The position numbers and the translations under genes were made by a program. A stretch of DNA of 64,000 nt from assembly GCF_001458415.1 (NCBI RefSeq), contig NZ_CYSD01000042.1:186001-250000 (forward strand), read 5' to 3'. How positions within the stretch are numbered: position 1 is the stretch's first letter; each line of letters opens with the position of its first letter. Below, piece by piece: positions 48,567 to 60,389 of the stretch. Origin of the DNA: Tritonibacter multivorans (GTDB taxonomy: Bacteria > Pseudomonadota > Alphaproteobacteria > Rhodobacterales > Rhodobacteraceae). The notes under the pieces were generated by a model. The model was given only the letters and a program-made list of their open reading frames with translations, did not search any database and was not told the origin of the DNA.

Positions 48567-48584
48567 TTTTACCAGTTGATAAAA
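48567..48584. promoter_or_regulatory. Degenerate RutR-like box upstream of preT
   Basis: TTTTACCAGTTGATAAAA matches 15 of 18 positions of the perfect box at 52315 and keeps the central ACCAGTTG. It lies 67 bp before the preT start. Confidence 0.45.
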
Positions 48585-48650
48585 AATAGAGCTGTGGCAG
48601 CATAGAGGAAAGACAAGACCCAAAAATCTATCCAATCAGGGAGATACCCA

Positions 48651-49985
48651 ATGGCGACCAGCCACCAGGCATCCGGGATCAAGTCGGGGCGTTTGTCCTC
48701 TGTCGACATCGCTGAAAACTTCGGGGATCTGCATGCGCCCTATGACGCCCACGAGGCGGCGGTTGCGGCGGATCGGTGTTATTTCTGTTTTGACGCGCCG
48801 TGCATGACGGCATGCCCGACATCTATTGATATTCCGCAATTCATCCGCGAAATTCAGGCCGGCCACGCGGAAAGCGCCGCTAAGACAATTTTGGATCAGA
48901 ACATTCTGGGCGGCATGTGCGCGCGCGTTTGTCCGACCGAGACCCTGTGCGAAGAGGCCTGTGTGCGCGAAGCCGCCGAAGGCAAGCCGGTTGAAATTGG
49001 CCGTCTTCAGCGCTTTGCCACCGACACCGTGATGGAGAAGGGTATCCACCCGTTCACCCGCGCAGAGGCCACCGGTAAGACGGTCGCGGTTGTGGGCGCG
49101 GGGCCCGCAGGTCTGGCCGCCGCCCATCGCCTTGCGATGAAGGGCCACGATGTGGTGGTGTTTGAATATAAGTCCAAAGCGGGCGGGCTGAACGAATTTG
49201 GCATTGCCGCTTATAAATCCACCAACGATTTTGCCGGGCGTGAAGTCGAATGGTTGATGCAGATCGGCGGCATCACTGTCGAATACGACAAAGGTTTTGG
49301 CAAAGGTCTGACCCTTGATGGCCTGAAGGCCGAGTATGACGCGGTCTTCTTGTCCATCGGTCTGGCAGGCGTCAATGCGCTGCGCGCAGCGGGCGAAGAC
49401 AAAGACGGCGTGCGCGATGCGGTCGATTTCATCGAAGATGTGCGACAGGCAGATGACCTGAGCGCGCTGCCCGTGGGGCGCAATGTGGTGGTGATCGGCG
49501 GTGGCATGACCGCTGTGGATGCCGCGGTGCAGTCGAAACTGCTGGGCGCGGAAAACGTCACCATTGCCTACCGCCGCGACCGTGATGCGATGGGGGCCAG
49601 CCGCTTTGAACAGGATCTTGCGGCCTCCAAGGGCGTGAAGCTGATGTTCAATGTGATGCCCAAGGAAATCATCGGCAATGGCGCCGCAGCTGAGATTGAA
49701 CTGGAATACACCGATATCGTGGAGGGCCGCGTCACGGGAACGGGCGAGACCACGCGTCTGGCGGCCGATCAGGTGTTCAAGGCCATTGGCCAGACGCTGG
49801 AAGGCGCGCCGCAGGAGCTCGCGATCGAAGGTGGGAAGATCCAAGTGAACGACGCTGGCCGCACGTCGATTGCAGGCGTCTGGGCCGGGGGCGACTGTGC
49901 CTCGGGCGGCGAAGATCTGACCGTGACCGCCGTGGCCGAAGGCCGCGACGCCGCTGAAGACATCCACAAGAGCCTTATGGCCTGA
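48651..49985 (+). CDS. preT: NAD-dependent dihydropyrimidine dehydrogenase, PreT subunit
   Basis: A 444-residue flavoprotein of the GltD-like family. The N-terminal domain carries FeS cysteines (CYFCFDAPCMTACP near residue 43; CARVCPTETLCEEAC near 90). Two dinucleotide motifs follow: VAVVGAGPAGLAAAHRL near 144 for FAD and VVVIGGGMTAVDAA near 281 for NAD(P)H. With PreA it reduces uracil and thymine to dihydro forms in the cytosol, the first step of reductive pyrimidine breakdown. preA follows 52 bp later. Confidence 0.94.
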   Translation: MATSHQASGIKSGRLSSVDIAENFGDLHAPYDAHEAAVAADRCYFCFDAPCMTACPTSIDIPQFIREIQAGHAESAAKTILDQNILGGMCARVCPTETLCEEACVREAAEGKPVEIGRLQRFATDTVMEKGIHPFTRAEATGKTVAVVGAGPAGLAAAHRLAMKGHDVVVFEYKSKAGGLNEFGIAAYKSTNDFAGREVEWLMQIGGITVEYDKGFGKGLTLDGLKAEYDAVFLSIGLAGVNALRAAGEDKDGVRDAVDFIEDVRQADDLSALPVGRNVVVIGGGMTAVDAAVQSKLLGAENVTIAYRRDRDAMGASRFEQDLAASKGVKLMFNVMPKEIIGNGAAAEIELEYTDIVEGRVTGTGETTRLAADQVFKAIGQTLEGAPQELAIEGGKIQVNDAGRTSIAGVWAGGDCASGGEDLTVTAVAEGRDAAEDIHKSLMA

Positions 49986-50037
49986 GCCAGTTGGGACCGT
50001 ATCCCGGTCACCGACAAGCAGAATAGGGAGAGATCAA

Positions 50038-51342
50038 ATGGCTGATCTGACGACAGAATTCCTCGGTATTAAGTCTCCGAACCCCTTCTGGCTGGCCTCT
50101 GCGCCGCCAACCGACAAAGAATACAATGTCCGTCGCGCCTTTGAAGCGGGCTGGGGCGGTGTGGTCTGGAAGACGCTGGGCGCAGAAGGCCCGCCCGTGG
50201 TCAATGTAAACGGCCCGCGCTATGGCGCGATCTGGGGCGCGGATCGTCGCCTTCTGGGGCTGAACAATATCGAACTGATCACCGATCGCCCGCTCGAGGT
50301 GAACCTCGAGGAAATGACCCGCGTGAAAAAGGACTATCCCGACCGCGCGCTGATTGCTTCGATCATGGTGCCCTGCGAAGAAGAGGCGTGGAAAAAGATC
50401 CTGCCGCGCGTGGCGGAAACCAATGCCGACGGGATCGAGCTGAACTTTGGCTGCCCGCATGGGATGGCCGAACGCGGCATGGGATCGGCTGTGGGGCAGG
50501 TGCCAGACTACATCCAGATGGTGACCGAATGGTGCAAGCAGTATTATGACCGCCCGGTGATCGTGAAGCTGACGCCAAACATCACCGACATCCGCCACCC
50601 GGCGCGCGCGGCGCAGGCGGGCAATGCCGATGCGGTGTCGCTGATCAATACGATCAACTCCATCACCTCGGTCGATCTGGACAATATGGCGCCGGAGCCG
50701 ACGATTGGTGGCAAGGGGTCGCACGGCGGCTATTGTGGTCCGGCGGTGAAACCGATTGCGTTGAATATGGTGGCAGAGATTGCCCGCGATCCGGCCACAG
50801 CCGGCCTGCCGATTTCCGCCATTGGCGGTGTAACCACCTGGAAAGACGCGGCTGAGTTTATCGCGCTTGGGGCTGGCAATGTGCAGGTCTGCACGGCGGC
50901 GATGACCTATGGGTTTAAAGTGGTCGAGGAAATGATCTCGGGCCTCAGCCATTGGATGGATGAAAAAGGCTATACCTCGATCGAGGACTTCCGCGGCATG
51001 GCGACCCCCAATGTCACCGATTGGCAGTATCTGGACCTGAACTATGTGGCCAAGGCGAAGATCAATCAGGACGATTGCATCAAATGCGGCCGCTGTTTTG
51101 CCGCCTGCGAGGACACCTCGCATCAGGCGATTGCCATGTCCGAGGACCGCACCTTTACCGTGAAGGATGACGAATGCGTGGCCTGTAACCTCTGCGTGAA
51201 TGTCTGCCCGGTTGAAGGCTGTATCACCATGGAGGAGGTGCCCGCAGGCCAGTTGGATCAGCGCACCGGCGAGGTTGTTTCCGACGAATACGCCAACTGG
51301 ACGACCCATCCCAACAACCCATCCGCGGTTGCGGGCGAATAA
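50038..51342 (+). CDS. preA: NAD-dependent dihydropyrimidine dehydrogenase, PreA subunit
   Basis: A 434-residue catalytic subunit. Residues 1-about 320 form a dihydroorotate dehydrogenase-like FMN barrel (NPFWLASAPPTD near residue 15; IELNFGCPHGMAERGMG near 141 with the active-site cysteine region). The C-terminal ferredoxin domain has CIKCGRCFAAC and CVACNLCVNVCP for two 4Fe-4S clusters. GGGAGAG precedes the ATG. It forms the enzyme with PreT, encoded just upstream. Confidence 0.96.
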   Translation: MADLTTEFLGIKSPNPFWLASAPPTDKEYNVRRAFEAGWGGVVWKTLGAEGPPVVNVNGPRYGAIWGADRRLLGLNNIELITDRPLEVNLEEMTRVKKDYPDRALIASIMVPCEEEAWKKILPRVAETNADGIELNFGCPHGMAERGMGSAVGQVPDYIQMVTEWCKQYYDRPVIVKLTPNITDIRHPARAAQAGNADAVSLINTINSITSVDLDNMAPEPTIGGKGSHGGYCGPAVKPIALNMVAEIARDPATAGLPISAIGGVTTWKDAAEFIALGAGNVQVCTAAMTYGFKVVEEMISGLSHWMDEKGYTSIEDFRGMATPNVTDWQYLDLNYVAKAKINQDDCIKCGRCFAACEDTSHQAIAMSEDRTFTVKDDECVACNLCVNVCPVEGCITMEEVPAGQLDQRTGEVVSDEYANWTTHPNNPSAVAGE

Positions 51343-51438
51343 AATTTCATCGGGCGGGGCGGGGTCTCGCCCGATAATCAGGCGGTGCAAAATGCCTGAA
51401 CCTCCACACCTTCCTCCGCTGACCTGTGAAAACTGAAA

Positions 51439-51465
51439 CGCCGCGCATTTTGCGCGGCGCTTTTT
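51439..51465 (+). terminator. Terminator of preTA
   Basis: Stem CGCCGCGCA / TGCGCGGCG (51439-51447 and 51451-51459) with a TTT loop is followed by CTTTTT. Confidence 0.88.
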
Positions 51466-51527
51466 GTCTGTTTCCAGCCGGGGTATGTCGCAATTCGAGT
51501 GCCTATTTTTGCAGCACGCCACCGCGG

Positions 51528-52145
51528 TCAATTGGCAGGGGTCAGCATTTTCCGATAGAGATTTTCAAGAAATTCTTCAGCGCCATCCATTGGGCCGTCC
51601 GGCGCCATAAGGGTGCGCACCTGCACGTCGAAATCCGCGTAGTGCTGGGTCAGCGACCAGATTGAAAACAGCAGGTGGCGGGGGTGCACGCGGGCCAGCT
51701 TTCCCTCGGTCATCCAAGTTTCAAAGATCATCACCGTGTCATCCACCAACACCCGCAGATCAGTGGACAGTTGGTCGATCATCCGCGGCGCGCCCTGGAC
51801 CAGCTCATTGGCAAACAGGCGGCTTTCGCGCGGCATTTCACGGCTCATCTCGAGCTTGCGACGGGTATATTGTAGAATTTCTTCAAGGGGTTCGCCGTCA
51901 GCGTTCAAGTCGCGCAAAGGGGCAAGCCAGCTGTCCAGAAGCTGCGACAGAAGGGCGGTGAAAATCTCTTCCTTTGATGGGAAGTAGTAAAGTAGATTGG
52001 GTTTGGACAGCCCTGCAGCTTTGGCGATCTGGTCGACGGTCGCGCCCCGAAACCCATTTTGCGAAAACACGTCCAACGCGGCTTCGAGGATCGCGGCACG
52101 GTTTCGTTTCTGAATACGCGTCAGGCTTCTTTCAGAGGTTGTCAC
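51528..52145 (-). CDS. rutR: TetR family pyrimidine regulator, RutR-like
   Basis: A 205-residue TetR-type repressor. The helix-turn-helix (FRGATVDQIAKAAGLSKPNL, then LYYFPSKEEIF) spans about residues 32-62. The C-terminal domain with SREMPRESRLFANELVQGAP and HPRHLLFSIWSLTQHYADF closely resembles E. coli RutR, whose ligands are uracil and thymine. It lies inside the pyrimidine-degradation locus, and a perfect RutR-type operator is found 170 bp upstream of its start. Its likely role is repression relieved by uracil. Confidence 0.92.
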   Translation of the reverse strand: MTTSERSLTRIQKRNRAAILEAALDVFSQNGFRGATVDQIAKAAGLSKPNLLYYFPSKEEIFTALLSQLLDSWLAPLRDLNADGEPLEEILQYTRRKLEMSREMPRESRLFANELVQGAPRMIDQLSTDLRVLVDDTVMIFETWMTEGKLARVHPRHLLFSIWSLTQHYADFDVQVRTLMAPDGPMDGAEEFLENLYRKMLTPAN

Positions 52146-52314
52146 GGCAATGCTTCTTTCTATTCCCGGCCCCGAATTGCAGTAAGCTGAGAGAGGTTTC
52201 GGGGCGATAAAATAATTTCGCCTGTTTTTCGCTCACTTGTCCAGCCGAAGGGCAAGTTTGCTGTTTTCGCAATACGCAATTTCTTGACTGATGTCACGCC
52301 GGTGTTACCGTGAG

Positions 52315-52332
52315 TTTGACCAGTTGGTCAAA
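52315..52332. promoter_or_regulatory. Perfect RutR-type operator
   Basis: TTTGACCAGTTGGTCAAA is a perfect inverted repeat (two 8-bp arms, GT centre) that contains the whole E. coli RutR consensus TTGACCA-N2-TGGTCAA. It lies between divergent rutR and the hydrolase gene. Confidence 0.9.
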
Positions 52333-52490
52333 TGTTCCTCCGACGTACATGTTTTAGATGATCGTCAAAGGGCAATTGGCCAACGTCAGACCACAGCCAC
52401 GGAGCGGCGCGCAGGCGCATGGCTCATGGTCCGCCACCAACCCCGAGGGCAGAGCCCCGGACGGCAGGGCCGCAGGGAAGGAAGTACTGG

Positions 52491-53741
52491 ATGACAGCAC
52501 TCGGTAAAAATCTGAAGATCGACGGCGACCGTTTGTGGGACAGCCTTATGGACATGGCCAAAATCGGCCCCGGTGTCGCAGGCGGCAACAATCGCCAGAC
52601 CCTGACGGATGAGGATGCGGAAGGCCGCGCGCTGTTCCAATCCTGGTGCGAGGCCGCAGGCTGCACCATGGGGGTCGACACGATGGGCAATATGTTTGCC
52701 ACCCGCGCAGGTGAAGACCCGGATGCGCTGCCGGTCTATATGGGCAGCCATCTGGACACCCAGCCCACCGGCGGCAAATACGACGGTATTTTGGGTGTTC
52801 TGGGCGGGCTGGAGGTGATCCGTTCGCTGAATGACATGGAAATCAAGACCAAACACCCAATCGTGGTGACCAACTGGACCAATGAAGAGGGCACGCGTTT
52901 TGCGCCTGCAATGCTGTCTTCTGGGGTGTTTGCGGGCAAGCACAGTCAGGACTGGGCCTATGGCCGCGAGGACGCGGAGGGCAAAACCTTTGGCGATGAG
53001 CTGAAGCGCATTGGCTGGGTTGGCGATGAAGAGGTCGGCGCGCGTAAAATGCACGCGATGTTTGAACTCCACATTGAACAGGGTCCCATTCTGGAAGCCG
53101 AGAAGAAAGACATTGGCGTTGTCACCCACGGGCAGGGCCTGTGGTGGCTGCAGTGCACGGTGACCGGCAAAGATGCGCACACGGGCTCGACCCCGATGAA
53201 TATGCGGGTGAACGCGGGTCTGGGCATGGCGCGCATGACCGAAGCGGCGCATCAGATTGCCATGGCGCATCAGCCCCATGCGGTGGGGGCTGTCGGGCAT
53301 TGCGATGTTTATCCGAATTCGCGCAATGTGATCCCGGGCAAAGTGGTGTTCACGGTTGATTTCCGCTCTCCGGATCTGGGCAAGCTGACCTCCATGCGCG
53401 AACAATATGAGGTGAAGGCCAAAGAGATCGCCGCAGAGCTGGGGCTGGGTCTGGAGATCGAACCGGTCGGTCATTTTGATCCTGTCACTTTTGATGAAGG
53501 CTGTGTCGGCGCAGTGCGCGGCGCGGCGGAGCGTTTGGGCTACAGCCACATGGATATCATTTCCGGCGCCGGCCACGATGCCTGCTGGATCAATGATGTG
53601 GCGCCCACCGCAATGATCATGTGCCCCTGCGTTGATGGTCTGAGCCACAATGAGGCGGAAGAGATTTCCAAGGACTGGGCGGCAGCGGGCACGGATGTGT
53701 TGCTGCATGCGGTGCTGGAGACGGCCGAGATCGTGGCGTGA
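52491..53741 (+). CDS. Zn-dependent carbamoyl-amidohydrolase (beta-ureidopropionase / HyuC type)
   Basis: A 416-residue M20-family amidohydrolase that cleaves N-carbamoyl amino acids. Metal ligands appear as GSHLDTQPTGGKYDG near residue 84, the glutamate pair in WTNEEGTRF near 127, and LHIEQGP near 192; SGAGHDACWI near 360 closes the site. In this locus the likely substrates are N-carbamoyl-beta-alanine and its methyl form, the last step of reductive pyrimidine breakdown. The ATG at 52491 has GGAAGGAAG upstream. It follows the RutR operator and precedes hydA. Confidence 0.92.
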   Translation: MTALGKNLKIDGDRLWDSLMDMAKIGPGVAGGNNRQTLTDEDAEGRALFQSWCEAAGCTMGVDTMGNMFATRAGEDPDALPVYMGSHLDTQPTGGKYDGILGVLGGLEVIRSLNDMEIKTKHPIVVTNWTNEEGTRFAPAMLSSGVFAGKHSQDWAYGREDAEGKTFGDELKRIGWVGDEEVGARKMHAMFELHIEQGPILEAEKKDIGVVTHGQGLWWLQCTVTGKDAHTGSTPMNMRVNAGLGMARMTEAAHQIAMAHQPHAVGAVGHCDVYPNSRNVIPGKVVFTVDFRSPDLGKLTSMREQYEVKAKEIAAELGLGLEIEPVGHFDPVTFDEGCVGAVRGAAERLGYSHMDIISGAGHDACWINDVAPTAMIMCPCVDGLSHNEAEEISKDWAAAGTDVLLHAVLETAEIVA

Positions 53742-53773
53742 AATCTGGGGGCACTTGATATCTGAGGACTCTT

Positions 53774-53819
53774 GGGGGCTCTGCCCCCAAACCCCCGGGA
53801 TATTTGTAAAAAGATGAAA
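53774..53819. repeat. Rhodobacterales-type intergenic repeat, copy 1
   Basis: GGGGGCTCTGCCCCC hairpin (53774-53788), then CCCCCGGGATATTTGT and AAAAAGATGAAA to 53819. The same order recurs at 57264-57320. It lies between the hydrolase gene and hydA. Confidence 0.85.
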
Positions 53820-53892
53820 AAGGGGCGGTGGCGCCCTGTGACGGAACAAGCTGAAACAAAAGCGGCGGCAGATCGCAGTTTCAACGGGAGAT

Positions 53893-55353
53893 ATGAAAAT
53901 GACCAAAGTCATCAAGAACGGCACCATTGTGACCGCTGACCTGACCTATAAGGCCGATGTTCTGATCGAGGGGGGCGTGATCACCCAGATTGGTCCGGAC
54001 CTGAAAGGCGATGAGGTTCTGGACGCCACTGGCTGCTATGTCATGCCGGGCGGGATCGATCCGCACACCCATCTTGAGATGCCTTTTATGGGCACCTATT
54101 CCTCGGATGATTTCGAGAGCGGCACCCGCGCAGGTCTTGCGGGCGGCAGCACAATGGTTGTCGATTTTGCCTTGCCGAACCCGGGCGAGAGCCTCTTGGA
54201 TGCGCTGAAGCGGTGGGACAATAAATCGACCCGCGCCAATTGCGACTATTCCTTCCACATGGCGGTGACCTGGTGGGGCGAGCAGGTCTTTGAAGACATG
54301 CAGACCGTCATTCAGCAGCGTGGCATCAATACATTCAAGCATTTCATGGCCTATAAGGGCGCGCTGATGGTCAATGATGACGAAATGTATGCCTCCTTCC
54401 AGCGCCTCGCGGAGCTGGGCGGCATTGCCATGGTGCATGCTGAGAACGGCGATGTGGTGGCGGAACTGTCTGCAAAACTGCTGGCTGAAGGCAACACTGG
54501 CCCCGAGGCGCATGCCTATTCCCGTCCGCCGCAGGTGGAAGGTGAGGCGACAAACCGCGCGATCATGATTGCCGATATGGCGGGCGTGCCGCTTTATGTG
54601 GTGCATACGTCGTGTGAGGAGTCCCATGAGGCGATCCGCCGCGCGCGGATGCAGGGCAAGCGGGTCTGGGGCGAGCCGTTGATCCAGCATCTGACGTTGG
54701 ACGACAGCGAATATATGCACCCCGATTGGGACCATGCCGCGCGGCGCGTGATGTCGCCGCCGTTCCGCAATAAGCAGCATCAGAATTCGCTGTGGAATGG
54801 TCTGCAATCGGGTTCGCTGTCGGTTGTGGCGACGGACCACTGTGCCTTTACATCCGAGCAGAAGCGCTTTGGCGTGGGGGATTTCACCAAGATCCCCAAT
54901 GGCACCGGTGGTCTGGAAGACCGGATGCCGATGCTGTGGACCCATGGGGTCAACACCGGCCGTCTGACGCCGAATGAGTTTGTGGCCGTGACCTCGACCA
55001 ATATCGCCAAGATCCTGAACTGCTATCCCAAGAAGGGCGCGGTCCTGGTGGGCGCAGATGCGGATCTTGTGGTTTGGGACCCGGAAAAATCCAAGACCAT
55101 CACCGCGGACAGCCAGCAGTCTGCGATCGACTACAATGTGTTTGAGGGGCAGGACGTCAAGGGCCTGCCGCGCTATACGCTGACCCGGGGTCAGGTGGCT
55201 GTGATGGACGGGGAGATCAAAACTCAGGAAGGTCACGGTAAATTCGTGGAACGCGAACCCAACACCGTGGTCAACAAAGCGCTGTCTACCTGGAAAGAGC
55301 TGACAGCGCCGCGTCCGGTTGAGCGTACCGGCATTCCTGCGACGGGGGTCTAA
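53893..55353 (+). CDS. hydA: Dihydropyrimidinase
   Basis: A 486-residue cyclic amidohydrolase that opens dihydrouracil and dihydrothymine. The binuclear zinc site is seen as His58 and His60 in DPHTHLEMPF, carboxylated Lys155 in FMAYKG, HAENGDV near 184, VHTSCEESH near 237 and ATDHCAF near 315. Length and motifs match bacterial D-hydantoinase/dihydropyrimidinase. It sits between the carbamoyl-hydrolase gene and the ABC transporter, which is five bases downstream. Confidence 0.96.
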   Translation: MKMTKVIKNGTIVTADLTYKADVLIEGGVITQIGPDLKGDEVLDATGCYVMPGGIDPHTHLEMPFMGTYSSDDFESGTRAGLAGGSTMVVDFALPNPGESLLDALKRWDNKSTRANCDYSFHMAVTWWGEQVFEDMQTVIQQRGINTFKHFMAYKGALMVNDDEMYASFQRLAELGGIAMVHAENGDVVAELSAKLLAEGNTGPEAHAYSRPPQVEGEATNRAIMIADMAGVPLYVVHTSCEESHEAIRRARMQGKRVWGEPLIQHLTLDDSEYMHPDWDHAARRVMSPPFRNKQHQNSLWNGLQSGSLSVVATDHCAFTSEQKRFGVGDFTKIPNGTGGLEDRMPMLWTHGVNTGRLTPNEFVAVTSTNIAKILNCYPKKGAVLVGADADLVVWDPEKSKTITADSQQSAIDYNVFEGQDVKGLPRYTLTRGQVAVMDGEIKTQEGHGKFVEREPNTVVNKALSTWKELTAPRPVERTGIPATGV

Positions 55354-55358
55354 GACAT

Positions 55359-56183
55359 ATGCTGAGCCAGGCGGAAATCGAAGGGTTCGGCGATGCCCAA
55401 CCCGTTCCCAGCCAAACTGTGATTGAGGCCCGCGACCTGAACCTCGTGTTCGGGTCCGGGGAGACCGCAGTGCAGGCGCTGAAGGATGTGAACCTCACCA
55501 TCAATAAGGGTGATTTTGTCTCCTTCATTGGCCCATCGGGCTGCGGTAAAACCACGTTCCTGCGCTGTATTGCAGCGCTGGAACAGCCCACCGGCGGCAG
55601 TCTGACAGTGAATGGCATGTCCCCGGAAGAGGCGCGAAAAGCGCGCGCCTATGGCTATGTGTTCCAGCATGCGGGGCTGTACCCGTGGCGCACGATTGCC
55701 AAGAACATCAAGCTACCTCTTGAGATTATGGGATACTCCAAAGCGGAGCAGGAGAGCCGCGTTGAGGAGGTGCTGAAGCTGGTGGAGCTGGAGGGCTTTG
55801 GCGGCAAATTCCCCTGGCAGCTATCGGGCGGTATGCAGCAGCGGGCGTCGATTGCGCGCGCGCTGGGGTTTGATGCCGATATTCTGCTGATGGATGAACC
55901 CTTTGGAGCGCTGGATGAAATTGTGCGCGACCATCTGAACGAGCAGCTTTTGCAGCTTTGGGCGCGGACCGATAAGACCATTGGCTTTGTCACCCACTCG
56001 ATCCCCGAGGCGGTGTATCTGTCGACCAAGATTGTGGTCATGTCGCCGCGTCCGGGCCGCATTCACGAGATCATCGACAGCCCGCTGCCAAAAGAGCGCC
56101 CCCTGGATATTCGCGACAGTGCAGAGTTCATTGAGGTCTCGCATCGCGTGCGCGAAGGGCTGCGGGCGGGGCATGCAGAATGA
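55359..56183 (+). CDS. ABC transporter ATPase (nitrate/sulfonate/pyrimidine family)
   Basis: A 274-residue ATPase with Walker A GPSGCGKTT, signature LSGGMQQRASIARAL and Walker B ILLMDEPFGALDE, typical of the SsuB/TauB/ThiZ group. A 20-residue N-terminal extension precedes the domain. It begins five bases after hydA and serves the two permeases and binding protein downstream. The cargo is probably a pyrimidine or a precursor, judged from position only. Confidence 0.93.
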   Translation: MLSQAEIEGFGDAQPVPSQTVIEARDLNLVFGSGETAVQALKDVNLTINKGDFVSFIGPSGCGKTTFLRCIAALEQPTGGSLTVNGMSPEEARKARAYGYVFQHAGLYPWRTIAKNIKLPLEIMGYSKAEQESRVEEVLKLVELEGFGGKFPWQLSGGMQQRASIARALGFDADILLMDEPFGALDEIVRDHLNEQLLQLWARTDKTIGFVTHSIPEAVYLSTKIVVMSPRPGRIHEIIDSPLPKERPLDIRDSAEFIEVSHRVREGLRAGHAE

Positions 56184-56277
56184 AGAAGCAAGGGCCTAAA
56201 AACTGGGGGGTGATATGCGTGCACCCCCTGTACCCCCCCTGTGCACCTGTCGTGTGCCATGATGAGGGGGCGAAGAC

Positions 56278-57195
56278 ATGAAAACTTTCTTCGCTGTTCT
56301 CACTGTCGTCGCGGGGATCATTGGTGTTTGGTACCTCGCTTGTGTGCCGATGAACATTAAGGGCGTTTTGGATGCTGCGGAACGGGAAGGCGAGCAGGTG
56401 ACGCCTGCCACCGCCAAGGAACGCCGCGATGCCTCGGCCCTTGGGCTGGTTGCGAACAATAGATTTGCGATGACCCGCGTGTGGTCCGTGGACCGCCCGC
56501 GCTTGCCCGCGCCGCATCAGGTGGCGGTGGAGCTGTGGCAGACCACGGTTGAGAAGAAGGTCACCTCCAAACGCAGCCTGATCTATCACGGCAAGGTGAC
56601 ACTGACTGCGACGCTTCTGGGCTTTGGCATCGGCACGCTGGCGGGGATCCTGCTGGCGGTTGGGATCGTGCATTCCAAGGTGATGGATATGTCTGTCATG
56701 CCCTGGGCCATTGTCAGCCAGACCATCCCGATCATTGCGCTCGCGCCGATGATTATTGTGGTGCTCTATTCCATTGGCGTGCAGGGCTTGCTGCCCAAGG
56801 CGATTATTGCGGCTTATCTGAGTTTCTTCCCGGTGGTTGTTGGTATGGTGAAAGGGTTGCGCAGTCCGGATCACATGCAGCTGGACCTGTTGAAGACCTA
56901 TAACGCCTCCACGAACCATGGGTTCTGGAAGCTGCGGTTGCCATCGTCGCTGCCGTATCTGTTTGCATCGCTCAAGATCGGCATTGCTGCATCTCTGGTG
57001 GGGGCGATTGTTGGTGAGCTGCCTACGGGTGCTGTGGCTGGCCTTGGGGCGCGTCTGTTGGCGGGCAGCTATTATGGGCAGACCGTTCAGATCTGGTCGG
57101 CGCTGTTTGCGGCGGCGATTTTGGCGGCGGCACTGGTGGCGCTGTTGGGACTGATGGAGCGGGCGCTGCTGGCCCGGATGGGGGTGCGGTCATGA
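56278..57195 (+). CDS. ABC transporter permease 1
   Basis: A 305-residue permease of the BPD inner-membrane family. One N-terminal helix and a soluble stretch of about 70 residues precede five to six helices; the ATPase-contact region is LDLLKTYNASTNHGFWKLRLP near residue 203 and the fold resembles SsuC. The long N-terminal periplasmic segment is unusual against SsuC. It follows the ATPase gene by 94 bp and pairs with a second, different permease. Confidence 0.9.
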   Translation: MKTFFAVLTVVAGIIGVWYLACVPMNIKGVLDAAEREGEQVTPATAKERRDASALGLVANNRFAMTRVWSVDRPRLPAPHQVAVELWQTTVEKKVTSKRSLIYHGKVTLTATLLGFGIGTLAGILLAVGIVHSKVMDMSVMPWAIVSQTIPIIALAPMIIVVLYSIGVQGLLPKAIIAAYLSFFPVVVGMVKGLRSPDHMQLDLLKTYNASTNHGFWKLRLPSSLPYLFASLKIGIAASLVGAIVGELPTGAVAGLGARLLAGSYYGQTVQIWSALFAAAILAAALVALLGLMERALLARMGVRS

Positions 57196-57263
57196 CCCGT
57201 TTCAAAAAGGCGGGCGCTGCCCACGTGATGGGATTAGGGGGCGCTGCCCGCAAGACGGGATTA

Positions 57264-57320
57264 GGGGGCTCTGCCCCCGGCGCTGCGCGCCTCCCCCGGG
57301 ATATTTGTAAAAAGATGAAA
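57264..57320. repeat. Rhodobacterales-type intergenic repeat, copy 2
   Basis: GGGGGCTCTGCCCCC at 57264-57278 is followed, after a short GC spacer, by CCCCCGGGATATTTGT and AAAAAGATGAAA to 57320. A partial extra copy of its first part (GGGATTAGGGGGCGCTGCCC) precedes it at 57230-57249. The end lies directly before the permease 2 ribosome site. Confidence 0.85.
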
Positions 57321-57331
57321 GGGGCCCTGTG

Positions 57332-58174
57332 ATGCTTTTGGTTGTTCTGGCGCTTTTGGTCTGGATCGCGGCCTGGTGGTTGAATGCGCGGCTTGCCAAT
57401 GGGGCGCAGGCCGGGACGCGGGCGGTGCAGCTTTTGGTGCCTGCGATCTTTGGTGGGACGCTGCTGATTGTCTGGGAGCTTTTGGTGCGTGGTCTTGGGG
57501 TGCCGTTGGTGATCCTTCCGGCGCCCAGCGTGATCGCAGAGCGTTTCGCCGGGTCGATCCCGATTCTTTGGGCGGATTTCTCGCAGACGATCCTGAAGGG
57601 AGCGCTGGGGGGCTATATTATCGGCTGTGGTGCGGCGTTTGTGATGGCCATTTTGGTTGATCGCAGCGATTTCCTGCGCCGGGGTCTGTTGCCGGTCGGG
57701 AATTTTGTGGCGGCCCTGCCGATTGTCGGCACCGCGCCCATTCTGGTGATGTGGTTTGGCTTTGACTGGCAGTCCAAAGCAGCTGTGGTTGTCGTGATGG
57801 TGTTTTTCCCGATGCTGGTGAACACCGTTGCGGGCCTGCGCGAAACCGATCAGATGCAGCGTGACCTGATGGCCACCTATGCCGCCAGCTACTGGCAGTC
57901 GCTTTTCAAGCTGCGCCTGCCTGCGGCCCTGCCGTTTATCTTTAACGGTCTGAAAATTTCCACCACGCTGGCGCTGATCGGTGCCATTGTCGCAGAGTTC
58001 TTTGGCTCTCCCACGGTGGGGATGGGCTTTCGGATTTCGACCTCGGTTGGGCAGCTTGCGCTGGATATGGTCTGGGCCGAGATCGTGGTTGCGGCCCTTG
58101 CCGGGTCAGCCTTCTACGGGCTGATGGCGGGGCTGGAGAAGGTTTTGACCTTCTGGCACCCCTCACAAAGGTAG
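57332..58174 (+). CDS. ABC transporter permease 2
   Basis: A 280-residue permease with about seven helices, including a first helix at residues 1-18. The ATPase-contact loop is DLMATYAASYWQSLFKLRLP near residue 170 and GAIVAEFFGSPTVGMGF near 216 is typical of the ThiX/SsuC family. A GTG at 57329 is an alternative start. The ribosome site AAAGGGG abuts the intergenic repeat. A strong terminator follows. Confidence 0.92.
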   Translation: MLLVVLALLVWIAAWWLNARLANGAQAGTRAVQLLVPAIFGGTLLIVWELLVRGLGVPLVILPAPSVIAERFAGSIPILWADFSQTILKGALGGYIIGCGAAFVMAILVDRSDFLRRGLLPVGNFVAALPIVGTAPILVMWFGFDWQSKAAVVVVMVFFPMLVNTVAGLRETDQMQRDLMATYAASYWQSLFKLRLPAALPFIFNGLKISTTLALIGAIVAEFFGSPTVGMGFRISTSVGQLALDMVWAEIVVAALAGSAFYGLMAGLEKVLTFWHPSQR

Positions 58175-58185
58175 CCCCATAAGAT

Positions 58186-58220
58186 AACCCCTTCCGCCCA
58201 TGCGGGAGGGGTTTTGTTTT
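58186..58220 (+). terminator. Terminator after permease 2
   Basis: A 12-bp stem (58186-58197 with 58202-58213, one G-T pair) and a CCAT loop are followed by TTTTGTTTT. It separates the permeases from the binding-protein gene. Confidence 0.9.
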
Positions 58221-58348
58221 GGCGTCTATGATACTGAAAAGAGGGTAAAAATACCCCGTGAATAAATGCCCAAAACTTTCGCACAGCGGCTGAAATCGTC
58301 TTGGCTTATTGTGAAATAACTTTGCCTTGGCCGTTCTGTCGCGCAAAA

Positions 58349-58366
58349 TTTGACCATAAGGACAAT
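58349..58366. promoter_or_regulatory. RutR-like half-conserved box before the binding-protein gene
   Basis: TTTGACCATAAGGACAAT has one perfect arm (TTTGACCA) and a weakened second arm, 15 of 18 matches. It ends 12 bp before the ATG and overlaps the likely leader. Confidence 0.4.
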
Positions 58367-58378
58367 AGGGAGTCTGAT

Positions 58379-59365
58379 ATGAAACACGTGCTCACAGCCG
58401 CCGCCATGGCACTGATGGGAACTTCTGCCGCATATGCCGCGGATGAGGTCAAACTGCAGCTGAAATGGGTCACTCAGGCCCAGTTCGCGGGCTACTATGT
58501 GGCGCTCGACAAGGGGTTTTACAGCGAGGAAGATCTGGATGTGACCATCCTGCCGGGTGGCCCCGACATCGCGCCGACCCAGGTGATCGCAGGTGGTGGT
58601 GCTGACGTCACCGTGGAATGGATGCCTGCCGCGCTGGCCGCCCGTGAAAAGGGTCTGCCGCTGGTGAACATTGCGCAGCCATTCAAATCCTCTGGCATGA
58701 TGCTGACCTGCTGGAAAGACACCGGCATTGCGGCACCCGCGGATCTGGCCGACCGTACGCTGGGCGTTTGGTTCTTTGGTAATGAGTTCCCCTTCATGAG
58801 CTGGATGAGCCAGCTGGGCATTTCCACCGAGGGAAAATCCGCCTCTGGTGTTGAGGTTCTGAAGCAGGGCTTTAATGTCGATCCGCTGTTGCAGCGTCAG
58901 GCCGATTGTATTTCGACCATGACCTACAATGAGTACTGGCAGGTGATTGACGCGGGCGTTGGTGCGGACGAACTGGTGACCTTCAAATATGAGGATCAGG
59001 GCGTCGCGACGCTGGAAGATGGTCTTTATGTGCTGGAAGACAAACTGTCGGACCCCGAATTCGCTGGTAAGATGGAGCGTTTTGTGCGCGCCTCTATGAA
59101 GGGTTGGAAATACGCTGAAGAGAACCCGGATGAAGCGGCTGAGATCGTTCTGGACAATGATGCCTCTGGTGCGCAGACCGAAGTGCACCAGAAGCGCATG
59201 ATGGGTGAAATCGCAAAACTGACTGCGGGTTCGAACGGCGCGCTGGATGTTGCCGATTACGAACGCACGGTCGCAACCCTGATGGGGGGCGGCTCTGATC
59301 CTGTGATCACCAAAGCACCCGAAGGCGCCTGGACCCACGCGATCACCGATGCGGCGCTGAAGTAA
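58379..59365 (+). CDS. NMT1-type ABC transporter substrate-binding protein
   Basis: A 328-residue periplasmic protein with a signal peptide cleaved near AAYAAD (residue 22). The NMT1/ThiY-like fold shows in VKLQLKWVTQAQFAGYYVAL and FYSEEDLDVTILPGGPDIAP, a pattern used for pyrimidine precursors and related ligands. GGGAG lies before the ATG at 58379. It has its own transcription unit with a RutR-like box and completes the importer encoded just upstream. The cargo is inferred as pyrimidine, hydantoin or dihydropyrimidine. Confidence 0.93.
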   Translation: MKHVLTAAAMALMGTSAAYAADEVKLQLKWVTQAQFAGYYVALDKGFYSEEDLDVTILPGGPDIAPTQVIAGGGADVTVEWMPAALAAREKGLPLVNIAQPFKSSGMMLTCWKDTGIAAPADLADRTLGVWFFGNEFPFMSWMSQLGISTEGKSASGVEVLKQGFNVDPLLQRQADCISTMTYNEYWQVIDAGVGADELVTFKYEDQGVATLEDGLYVLEDKLSDPEFAGKMERFVRASMKGWKYAEENPDEAAEIVLDNDASGAQTEVHQKRMMGEIAKLTAGSNGALDVADYERTVATLMGGGSDPVITKAPEGAWTHAITDAALK

Positions 59366-59420: not shown

Positions 59421-59448
59421 GAACCCCGCCGAATTTTCGGCGGGGTTC
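59421..59448. terminator. Hairpin after the binding-protein gene
   Basis: A perfect 13-bp stem (59421-59433 with 59436-59448) lies 56 bp after the gene. The T run is on the minus-strand side, so on the plus strand it may act as 3' protection. Confidence 0.7.
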
Positions 59449-59549: not shown

Positions 59550-60389
59550 GTGCTTAAACCAACGGAACAGTTATGCTTTTGCGCTCTTTCCCGTGACGCT
59601 GGCGGCGGTGGGAGGGGGCGTAAACGCATTGGCGCATCCGTGATGTCCATCCAATCTGTGCCGGAGGAAGACGGGGCTGATGATGTGCGCGTTGCCGTAA
59701 AAGATGACGACGACAGCGGGCAAAGTTCACGGTTTTCTAAGCAGGATAAAGGCCGGGCGTCCCCTTTGGATCCGCTGTGCCTCAGGGCGCGTTTGCAGCG
59801 GGATCTGAGCGCAGAAGAGCAGGTTCTGGTGTTGCTGGATCAGGGCGCAAGTGACGGGTCCTTGATGCCGGCTGAGGCGGGGCAGATGCCAGTGGGGATC
59901 ACGTGGGTCACAGTGTGTCAGGCGGACTGCCTGACCGCAGAGGATCTGTGTGTGGCGCTGAAATCGGGGTTTGACCGGGTTTATCTTCAGCTCAGCGCGG
60001 ATGTGACGCGGTTGGCCGGGCAATTGCAACGGGTGGAGGCGGCGGCCCTGCGGCTGGGACCGGGGCAGGTGGTGTCCTTGTTCCATTCGGTCGAAGGGCT
60101 GCTTGCGGGCTGGGCGGAACACGGCACGCGTGGTCCTGTGGTAGATGCCGCGCCGGTGCCTGCCAAGGCCATGCGCCCGGCTGAACTTGCGATTTCTGGC
60201 GCGGACTGCACGTATTGCGGCCAATGCGCCTGGGTCTGTCCAACCGGGGCGCTGTTCCATGGGGATGGCCTTCTGAGTGTGGAAGACGCTGCCTGCATTG
60301 CTTGCGGCGTCTGTGTTGCCACATGCCCGTCGCGCGCGCTGTCTCTCGTCCGCAGGGACAGCGAAGGCGCTCCTGAAAATACCGAATAG
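59550..60389 (+). CDS. 4Fe-4S ferredoxin-type protein with MvhD/FlpD-like region
   Basis: A 279-residue protein. The C-terminal 75 residues hold two 4Fe-4S motifs, CTYCGQCAWVCP and CIACGVCVATCP. The middle (about 75-190) resembles the FlpD/MvhD-type regions of electron-transfer proteins (VTVCQADCLTAEDLCVALKS). The first 60 residues are charged and unlike the rest. GTG at 59550 has AGGGG six bases upstream; ATG at 59643 is the alternative. Related FeS proteins occur beside formate dehydrogenase genes, but none is here. The partner is unknown. Confidence 0.75.
   Translation: MLKPTEQLCFCALSRDAGGGGRGRKRIGASVMSIQSVPEEDGADDVRVAVKDDDDSGQSSRFSKQDKGRASPLDPLCLRARLQRDLSAEEQVLVLLDQGASDGSLMPAEAGQMPVGITWVTVCQADCLTAEDLCVALKSGFDRVYLQLSADVTRLAGQLQRVEAAALRLGPGQVVSLFHSVEGLLAGWAEHGTRGPVVDAAPVPAKAMRPAELAISGADCTYCGQCAWVCPTGALFHGDGLLSVEDAACIACGVCVATCPSRALSLVRRDSEGAPENTE

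Follow-up and report, generated by a model that had tools for sequence, protein, structure and literature searches.

A RutR-type regulator and conserved candidate operators at a reductive pyrimidine locus of Tritonibacter multivorans

How does a uracil-sensing regulator of the kind that Escherichia coli ties to its oxidative rut genes come to stand among the genes of the reductive route of pyrimidine breakdown? The question is raised by an 11-kb locus in a stretch of 64,000 nucleotides from Tritonibacter multivorans (NCBI RefSeq assembly GCF_001458415.1, contig NZ_CYSD01000042.1, positions 186,001–250,000 of the forward strand; hereafter the window). A gene for a RutR-type TetR regulator lies there on the reverse strand between two forward-strand groups, preT-preA on one side and, on the other, genes for an N-carbamoyl-beta-alanine amidohydrolase (carbamoylase), a dihydropyrimidinase (hydA), and the ATPase, two permeases and binding protein of an ATP-binding cassette (ABC) importer. 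An earlier note on this DNA, made from the sequence alone, suggested that a uracil-sensing regulator has here been rewired to a different catabolic route. The locus is very probably an ordinary alphaproteobacterial uracil-use locus under uracil-responsive repression of the RutR type, with an importer that would bring in uracil.

All three enzyme steps of the reductive pathway are encoded (PreTA, HydA and the carbamoylase), and the route from uracil to beta-alanine is, on the agreement of curated models and solved relatives, complete. The nearest solved relative of PreA is dihydropyrimidine dehydrogenase 1gt8, and the carbamoylase also exceeds the cut-offs of PRK09290.1-3 and matches PDB entry 8c46, an N-carbamoyl-beta-alanine amidohydrolase, with 719.6 bits; PreT reaches no NCBIfam cut-off among the matches listed (25 of 85). 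The gene assignments of the earlier note (PreTA, dihydropyrimidinase, carbamoyl-amidohydrolase, NMT1-type importer and RutR-like TetR regulator) were all confirmed at their positions by curated models, Pfam and solved relatives. Its statement that no rut genes are present holds for rutA: the 4.17-Mb genome (45 contigs) contains no RutA over the family cut-off and one weak homologue (41.2 bits against 498.3), and rutB–G were not sought genome-wide.

Candidate operators and the RutR-type regulator

The intergenic region between the regulator and carbamoylase genes contains an exact palindrome (Table 1) that fits TTGACCANNTGGTCAA, which we take to be the RutR consensus; this sequence was compared with two E. 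coli regions, of which the carA region has TTGACCATTTGGTCCA, at one mismatch (9 of 200 shuffles of the 1-kb stretch match at three or fewer). In the whole genome TTGACCA-NN-TGGTCAA occurs once without mismatch, at 52316, with five other sites at one mismatch, and a scan of the window at up to three mismatches gave eight sites where 2.62 were expected, a count that none of 100 shuffles equalled. The box is also kept in place. Among the 53 relatives with enough sequence upstream of the carbamoylase gene, 45 have a site within two mismatches of TTGACCANNTGGTCAA, the best site showing zero, one or two mismatches in 9, 11 and 25 of them, against a mean best of 5.4 mismatches in shuffled regions. 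(Among the loci compared, the closest named relatives belong to Epibacterium, Tritonibacter and Leisingera, which places the genome with the Roseobacter-type Rhodobacterales; the set compared may lack records that are very similar to the window.) At the same threshold, sites were found upstream of preT in 6/41, hydA in 0/51, the ATPase gene in 0/50, permease 1 in 0/48, permease 2 in 1/47, preA in 0/43 and the binding-protein gene in 3/44. Within the 1.02 Mb of these 53 loci, 58 of 81 such sites lie within 350 bp upstream of the carbamoylase gene, a density of 3.127 per kb against 0.023 elsewhere in the loci.

A second type of candidate operator precedes preT (Table 1). It is three mismatches away from the first consensus, and its pattern, TTTACCRNNTGATAAA, is found at no more than one mismatch in two places of the genome, here and at one other site (one mismatch). 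The strict form TTTACC[AG]NTTGATAAA stands upstream of preT in 33 of 41 relatives, a related form in seven and none in one; where the scan with the first consensus chose this box, it starts 59 to 105 bp before the estimated gene start. Sites at up to one mismatch in 814 kb (42 loci) are concentrated in the same way, with 36 of 42 within 350 bp upstream of preT. Both of these boxes are kept in Rhodobacterales and Rhizobiales. A third box, before the binding-protein gene, was rejected as an operator and is not generally conserved: the three relatives with a site there are all Leisingera, and none has this sequence.

The best solved relative of the regulator is E. coli RutR (3loc, E 8.9e-55). The legend to figure 5 of PMC10891134 names W77, Y97, W167, Q171 and Q179 as the residues of E. 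coli RutR that contact uracil, and the window regulator keeps all five, in line with its earlier description as RutR-like. In the regulators of the 56 nearest loci (L016–L071), W77, Y97, W167 and Q171 are kept in 56/56 and Q179 in 55/56. Uracil, not thymine, is given as the physiological ligand of RutR in E. coli in a passage of a review (PMC6245113). The window regulator thus resembles E. coli RutR in TetR_C_3 membership, in the type of its 16-bp palindrome and in its uracil contacts. It differs in that it falls below curated cut-offs, belongs to the sister clade of the rut-linked regulators, and has its boxes before reductive rather than oxidative genes; the E. coli protein is the regulator of rutABCDEFG and carAB, whereas here the genome has no RutA over the cut-off and no box is found near carA in the stretch examined. 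Outside the window, the genome encodes a second, unlinked RutR-family regulator (G000:C1:19974-20504; L108:9945-10574) that also keeps the five contact residues; its gene, flanked by one for an enoyl-CoA hydratase and by a Usp/TRAP-transporter pair, has a box, TTGTCCATCCGGTCAA, in the upstream gap.

The existence of two box types allows a different assignment, in which the regulator acts on the 52316 box and on itself only, and preTA obeys another regulator that reads the TTTACC-TGATAAA box. Each box type keeps its own form across two orders, and the second RutR-family protein (C1:19974-20504) would be at hand. However, in a sample of 101 genomes of the order, 73 of the 97 regulator-bearing genomes have a single RutR-family match (E ≤ 1e-35) and 24 have two; four loci (L034, L035, L038 and L043) have a preT box of intermediate type, TTGACCATGTGGTAAA; and in one genus (g68) all genomes checked for both (5/5) have a box upstream of the RutR-type gene as well as the preT box, whether or not a second regulator stands beside the operon. 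We consider separate control of preTA unlikely.

The genes, the boxes and their conservation, the kept contact residues and the linkage of the importer to pyrimidine catabolism were observed directly; that the regulator binds and represses, that uracil releases it, and what the importer carries are inferred. In the preferred reading, control of both groups by the RutR-type protein, a dimer of the regulator would, when uracil is absent, most likely occupy the 52316–52331 box and the variant box at 48568–48583 and repress the carbamoylase-dihydropyrimidinase-importer operon, preTA and probably its own gene. Uracil, entering chiefly through the ABC importer, would fill the conserved pocket and free the DNA. 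PreTA would then reduce uracil, and thymine as well, to the corresponding dihydro base. HydA would open the ring, and the products of the amidohydrolase would be ammonia, CO2 and either beta-alanine or its methyl homologue; these reaction steps are taken from what is established for the enzyme families.

The coordinates of all features are collected in Table 1. Terminator-like hairpins after preA, permease 2 and the binding-protein gene suggest three transcription units in addition to the regulator gene, in a region where such hairpins are common by chance (20 found, 10.3 expected in shuffles). Downstream of the locus, at 59550-60389, is an open reading frame (ORF) for a product of 279 aa, in which two Cys-rich, ferredoxin-like motifs were read by eye close to the C-terminal end.

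Table 1. Features of the locus (positions in the window).
Feature	Coordinates	Strand	Evidence or remark
Second candidate operator type, TTTACCAGTTGATAAA	48568..48583	+	Ends 67 bp 5' of preT start codon
PreT-type dihydropyrimidine dehydrogenase subunit	48651..49985	+	Pfam Fer4_20 and Pyr_redox_2 over cut-off; adjoins PreA
PreA, dihydropyrimidine dehydrogenase catalytic subunit	50038..51342	+	NF006183, 728.6 bits (cut-off 335)
Terminator-like hairpin 3' of preA	51439..51459	+	
RutR-type TetR regulator	51528..52145	-	Pfam TetR_C_3 over cut-off
Candidate operator, TTGACCAGTTGGTCAA, between rutR and carbamoylase gene	52316..52331		Exact TTGACCA-NN-TGGTCAA palindrome
N-carbamoyl-beta-alanine amidohydrolase (M20 family)	52491..53741	+	TIGR01879, 390.1 bits (cut-off 204)
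Dihydropyrimidinase (HydA)	53893..55353	+	TIGR02033, 599.8 bits (cut-off 393.25); PDB 3dc8, 914.5 bits
ABC importer ATPase	55359..56183	+	Pfam ABC_tran
ABC importer permease 1	56278..57195	+	Pfam BPD_transp_1
ABC importer permease 2	57329..58174	+	Pfam BPD_transp_1
Terminator-like hairpin 3' of permease 2	58186..58213	+	
Weak box, TTGACCATAAGGACAA, before binding-protein gene, unsupported as operator	58350..58365	+	2 mismatches
Periplasmic substrate-binding protein, NMT1/THI5-like	58379..59365	+	Pfam NMT1, 131.2 bits
Terminator-like hairpin 3' of binding-protein gene	59421..59448		

Cargo of the importer and points against the reading

The importer comprises an NMT1 binding protein, two permeases and an ATPase. 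In a sample of 289 genomes of the class it was found in 42 (E ≤ 1e-60), and 27 of 38 importer loci outside the window's family have at least one reductive pyrimidine gene on the same stretch. In one genome, which came from the phylum sample (G238, L281:6912-15334), the same four genes, 55–69% identical, follow rutF on the same strand and end a rutABCDF cluster, which also holds a RutR-type regulator; another genome of that genus (G128, L282) has a RutG homologue on its stretch with rut genes. Since the importer is linked to both routes, uracil or thymine is the predicted cargo. A figure key in PMC11698098 contains the term 'pyrimidine ABC transporter', which that key does not tie to the importer of the window.

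A thiamine precursor (hydroxymethyl- or formylaminopyrimidine) might be carried instead, by an importer that came to stand here by chance. The binding protein does belong to the NMT1/THI5 family, and its best solved relative, PDB 3ix1 (a formyl-aminopyrimidine binding protein, E 3.2e-20), binds N-formyl-4-amino-5-aminomethyl-2-methylpyrimidine. Yet the association with reductive genes recurs in other alphaproteobacterial families, and the input common to the reductive route and to the rut cluster closed by one importer copy is the pyrimidine base, which makes a thiamine-related cargo improbable.

Several observations weigh against the locus being a RutR-controlled uracil-use locus. The regulator misses both curated RutR models (TIGR03613, 222.7 of 368 bits; PRK15008, 202.8 of 230) and, being below these cut-offs, is termed RutR-type here and not a RutR equivalog; the cut-off of TIGR03613 is a strict one, reached in none of 249 genomes of a phylum sample, rut-linked ones included, and in none of the 101 of the order sample. 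In 8 of the 53 relatives the best carbamoylase site has three to six mismatches, and the E. coli rutA-rutR gap has only a weak site with three mismatches, equalled by 63 of 200 shuffles. Sigma-70-type promoters are not in excess in the region (two found, 3.9 expected). Eleven of the 38 importer loci have no reductive gene, five of them being the lowest-scoring relatives and one lying on a 5.2-kb contig. Finally, no beta-alanine transaminase could be placed under the regulator. An aminotransferase gene of the genome, which might serve the step after beta-alanine and reaches no NCBIfam cut-off among the matches listed, has an upstream box with two mismatches; the gene is present in 38 of 61 genomes, and of the 30 loci obtained, the genome's own included, none of the 29 orthologues has a site at two or fewer mismatches within 300 bp (one has three, two have four). 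We treat this box as chance or lineage-specific.

In the single carA stretch examined (L334, 4.1 kb) the best site has four mismatches, and no control of carAB was found there. Three of the five one-mismatch sites lie inside listed ORFs (C15, C37 and C42:165059), of which those on C15 and C42 may be spurious and that on C37 we take to resemble DnaK; a fourth (C39) lies beside other genes. The fifth, TTGACTACTTGGTCAA on C2, is 16 bp before the ORF start of a PreA-like gene. This gene (L109:6492-7586, G000:C2) lies outside the window and belongs to the dihydroorotate dehydrogenase family (NF006183, 289.2 bits, cut-off 335).

It is hardly credible that the palindrome at 52316 arose by chance and that the TetR protein has other targets: similar palindromes are often bound by TetR proteins and the genome has 55 sites at up to two mismatches against 21 for the reversed pattern, but this is the only exact one, it is kept in place in the great majority of relatives, and it lies where such sites are more than 100 times denser than elsewhere in the loci.

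Second regulators and the double box

Fourteen of the 56 nearest loci have a further RutR-family gene, 38–43% identical to that of the window, between the RutR-type and carbamoylase genes. The encoded proteins all keep the five uracil contacts (14/14), and in the regulator tree their representatives group with the regulator of a locus of the same phylum (L209), in which PreT, PreA, HydA and carbamoylase genes adjoin a RutR-family gene. L209 was used as a stand-in for PydR of Pseudomonas putida; the title of Hidese et al. 2012 (J. Biochem.; cited in PMC7332683) describes this protein as RutR-like and as a repressor that acts on the reductive pathway's gene for dihydropyrimidine dehydrogenase. 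We infer from this grouping that the tandem second regulators are of PydR type. The window regulator is like PydR, as described in that title, in being a RutR-like regulator accompanying the reductive pathway, and the conserved candidate box before preT would suit action on a dihydropyrimidine dehydrogenase operon; the stand-in, which is not the named PydR sequence, differs in falling into another clade, with the tandem second regulators.

The number of boxes before the carbamoylase gene follows the presence of the second regulator. A pair of boxes, 33 bp (seven loci) or 34 bp (nine) apart, is found in 16 of 19 two-regulator loci (for example L024, L032, L177 and L186), the other three having no box by the pattern; of 47 one-regulator loci, 39 show one box or more, and a pair 20–60 bp apart occurs in none. 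Other loci, in which the only regulator is of the second type, vary: they have a single box, no box at all, or a pair with a different spacing (L296, L225). In genus g68, the double box occurs in two genomes that carry the second regulator, and four in which this regulator is absent (L176, L178, L183 and L188) have no carbamoylase site at up to two mismatches of the general pattern within 600 bp; the preT box is kept in 3/3 of the latter where preT is on the stretch. In L176 the midpoints of the regulator and carbamoylase genes are 3 kb apart.

By the pattern in g68, the preT box would belong to the RutR-type regulator and the double box to the PydR-type; in the lineage of the window, the RutR-type would then control the carbamoylase operon as well. 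The tandem state changes six times on the best tree, and a paired test found three independent pairs on supported branches, with 1.9 agreeing on average, none opposed and a median p of 0.5. The correlation is clean, but with few independent events it is not significant; it suggests an exchange of repressors. A broader account is conceivable, although we would give it somewhat less than an even chance: the two anciently separated regulators, each with a uracil pocket, may swap control of the carbamoylase-dihydropyrimidinase-importer operon in Alphaproteobacteria, the operator changing with them (one box with the RutR-type alone, a pair 33/34 bp apart where the PydR-type gene adjoins the operon), the window being a case in which the RutR-type took both operons and the E. 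coli link to rut perhaps a later capture. The locus arrangement itself is the known part of these results; the link of operator number to the second regulator is the newer one.

Distribution and direction of change

Across the order, the predicted RutR-type control of the reductive pathway is the usual state, an ordinary arrangement of a known kind. In the order sample, the RutR family is present in 97 genomes, PreA in 93 (E ≤ 1e-100) and RutA over the cut-off in one. Both RutR and PreA are encoded by 92 of the 101 genomes; the two genes are at most 10 kb apart in 81 of these 92, and farther apart or on other contigs in 11. The only genome of the sample with RutA over the cut-off (L232, G042:C1:419000-435400) has rutA and a weak rutF homologue, with no rutB-D above thresholds; its RutR-type/reductive locus is 55 kb away. 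Among 80 named loci, the nearest (L016–L071) have reductive genes in 54/56 and L073–L095 have rut genes in 22/23; L072 has neither. The passages of Leyn et al. 2016 (PMC5343134) that concern RutR report regulons reconstructed in 68 genomes of 13 proteobacterial groups, with 743 target genes, file RutR under pyrimidine catabolism, as the window would have it, and describe changes of the motif as taxon-specific. In the openly licensed literature, a scope that leaves most subscription papers outside, no paper was found on RutR over preTA in Rhodobacterales.

The regulator tree was built by a quick method from 96 of 158 regulators, near-copies that shared a label having been removed; the sampling was guided by similarity to RutR, the root is a midpoint root only, and long branches (including L108) and one doubtful join (L214 with L222) were flagged. 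All 17 rut-linked rows fall into one starred clade, together with five unlinked rows. The window's clade (33 reductive and five unlinked rows, support 84) is its sister under this root, and in a deeper group 9 of 36 rows are reductive-linked and 27 have no adjacent pyrimidine genes. Counting the two linked states only, one change is required; with unlinked rows as a third state, there are 14. No feature of the tree speaks for the oxidative link as the original state. With the rut-linked rows confined to one clade and reductive ones in both its sister and the deeper group, it may be E. coli that has the derived arrangement, as far as a midpoint root allows the direction of rewiring to be read.

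The rewiring of an E. coli-type state that the earlier note suggested is not supported as a peculiarity of this locus, given the common linkage of RutR with PreA and the near absence of RutA from the order; the change may even have run towards E. coli. The contrast with E. coli that it drew is real, as a contrast between lineages and not as a peculiarity of the window.

These results correct an E. coli-centred view of RutR, in that the partners of the uracil sensor in this order are an importer and the reductive route. The importer copy at the end of a rut cluster argues for the pyrimidine base as cargo and provides a substrate hypothesis for an NMT1-type transporter that 42 of 289 genomes of the class sample encode. 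The relation of operator number to the second regulator would offer natural cases of a repressor replacing its paralogue at a fixed promoter.

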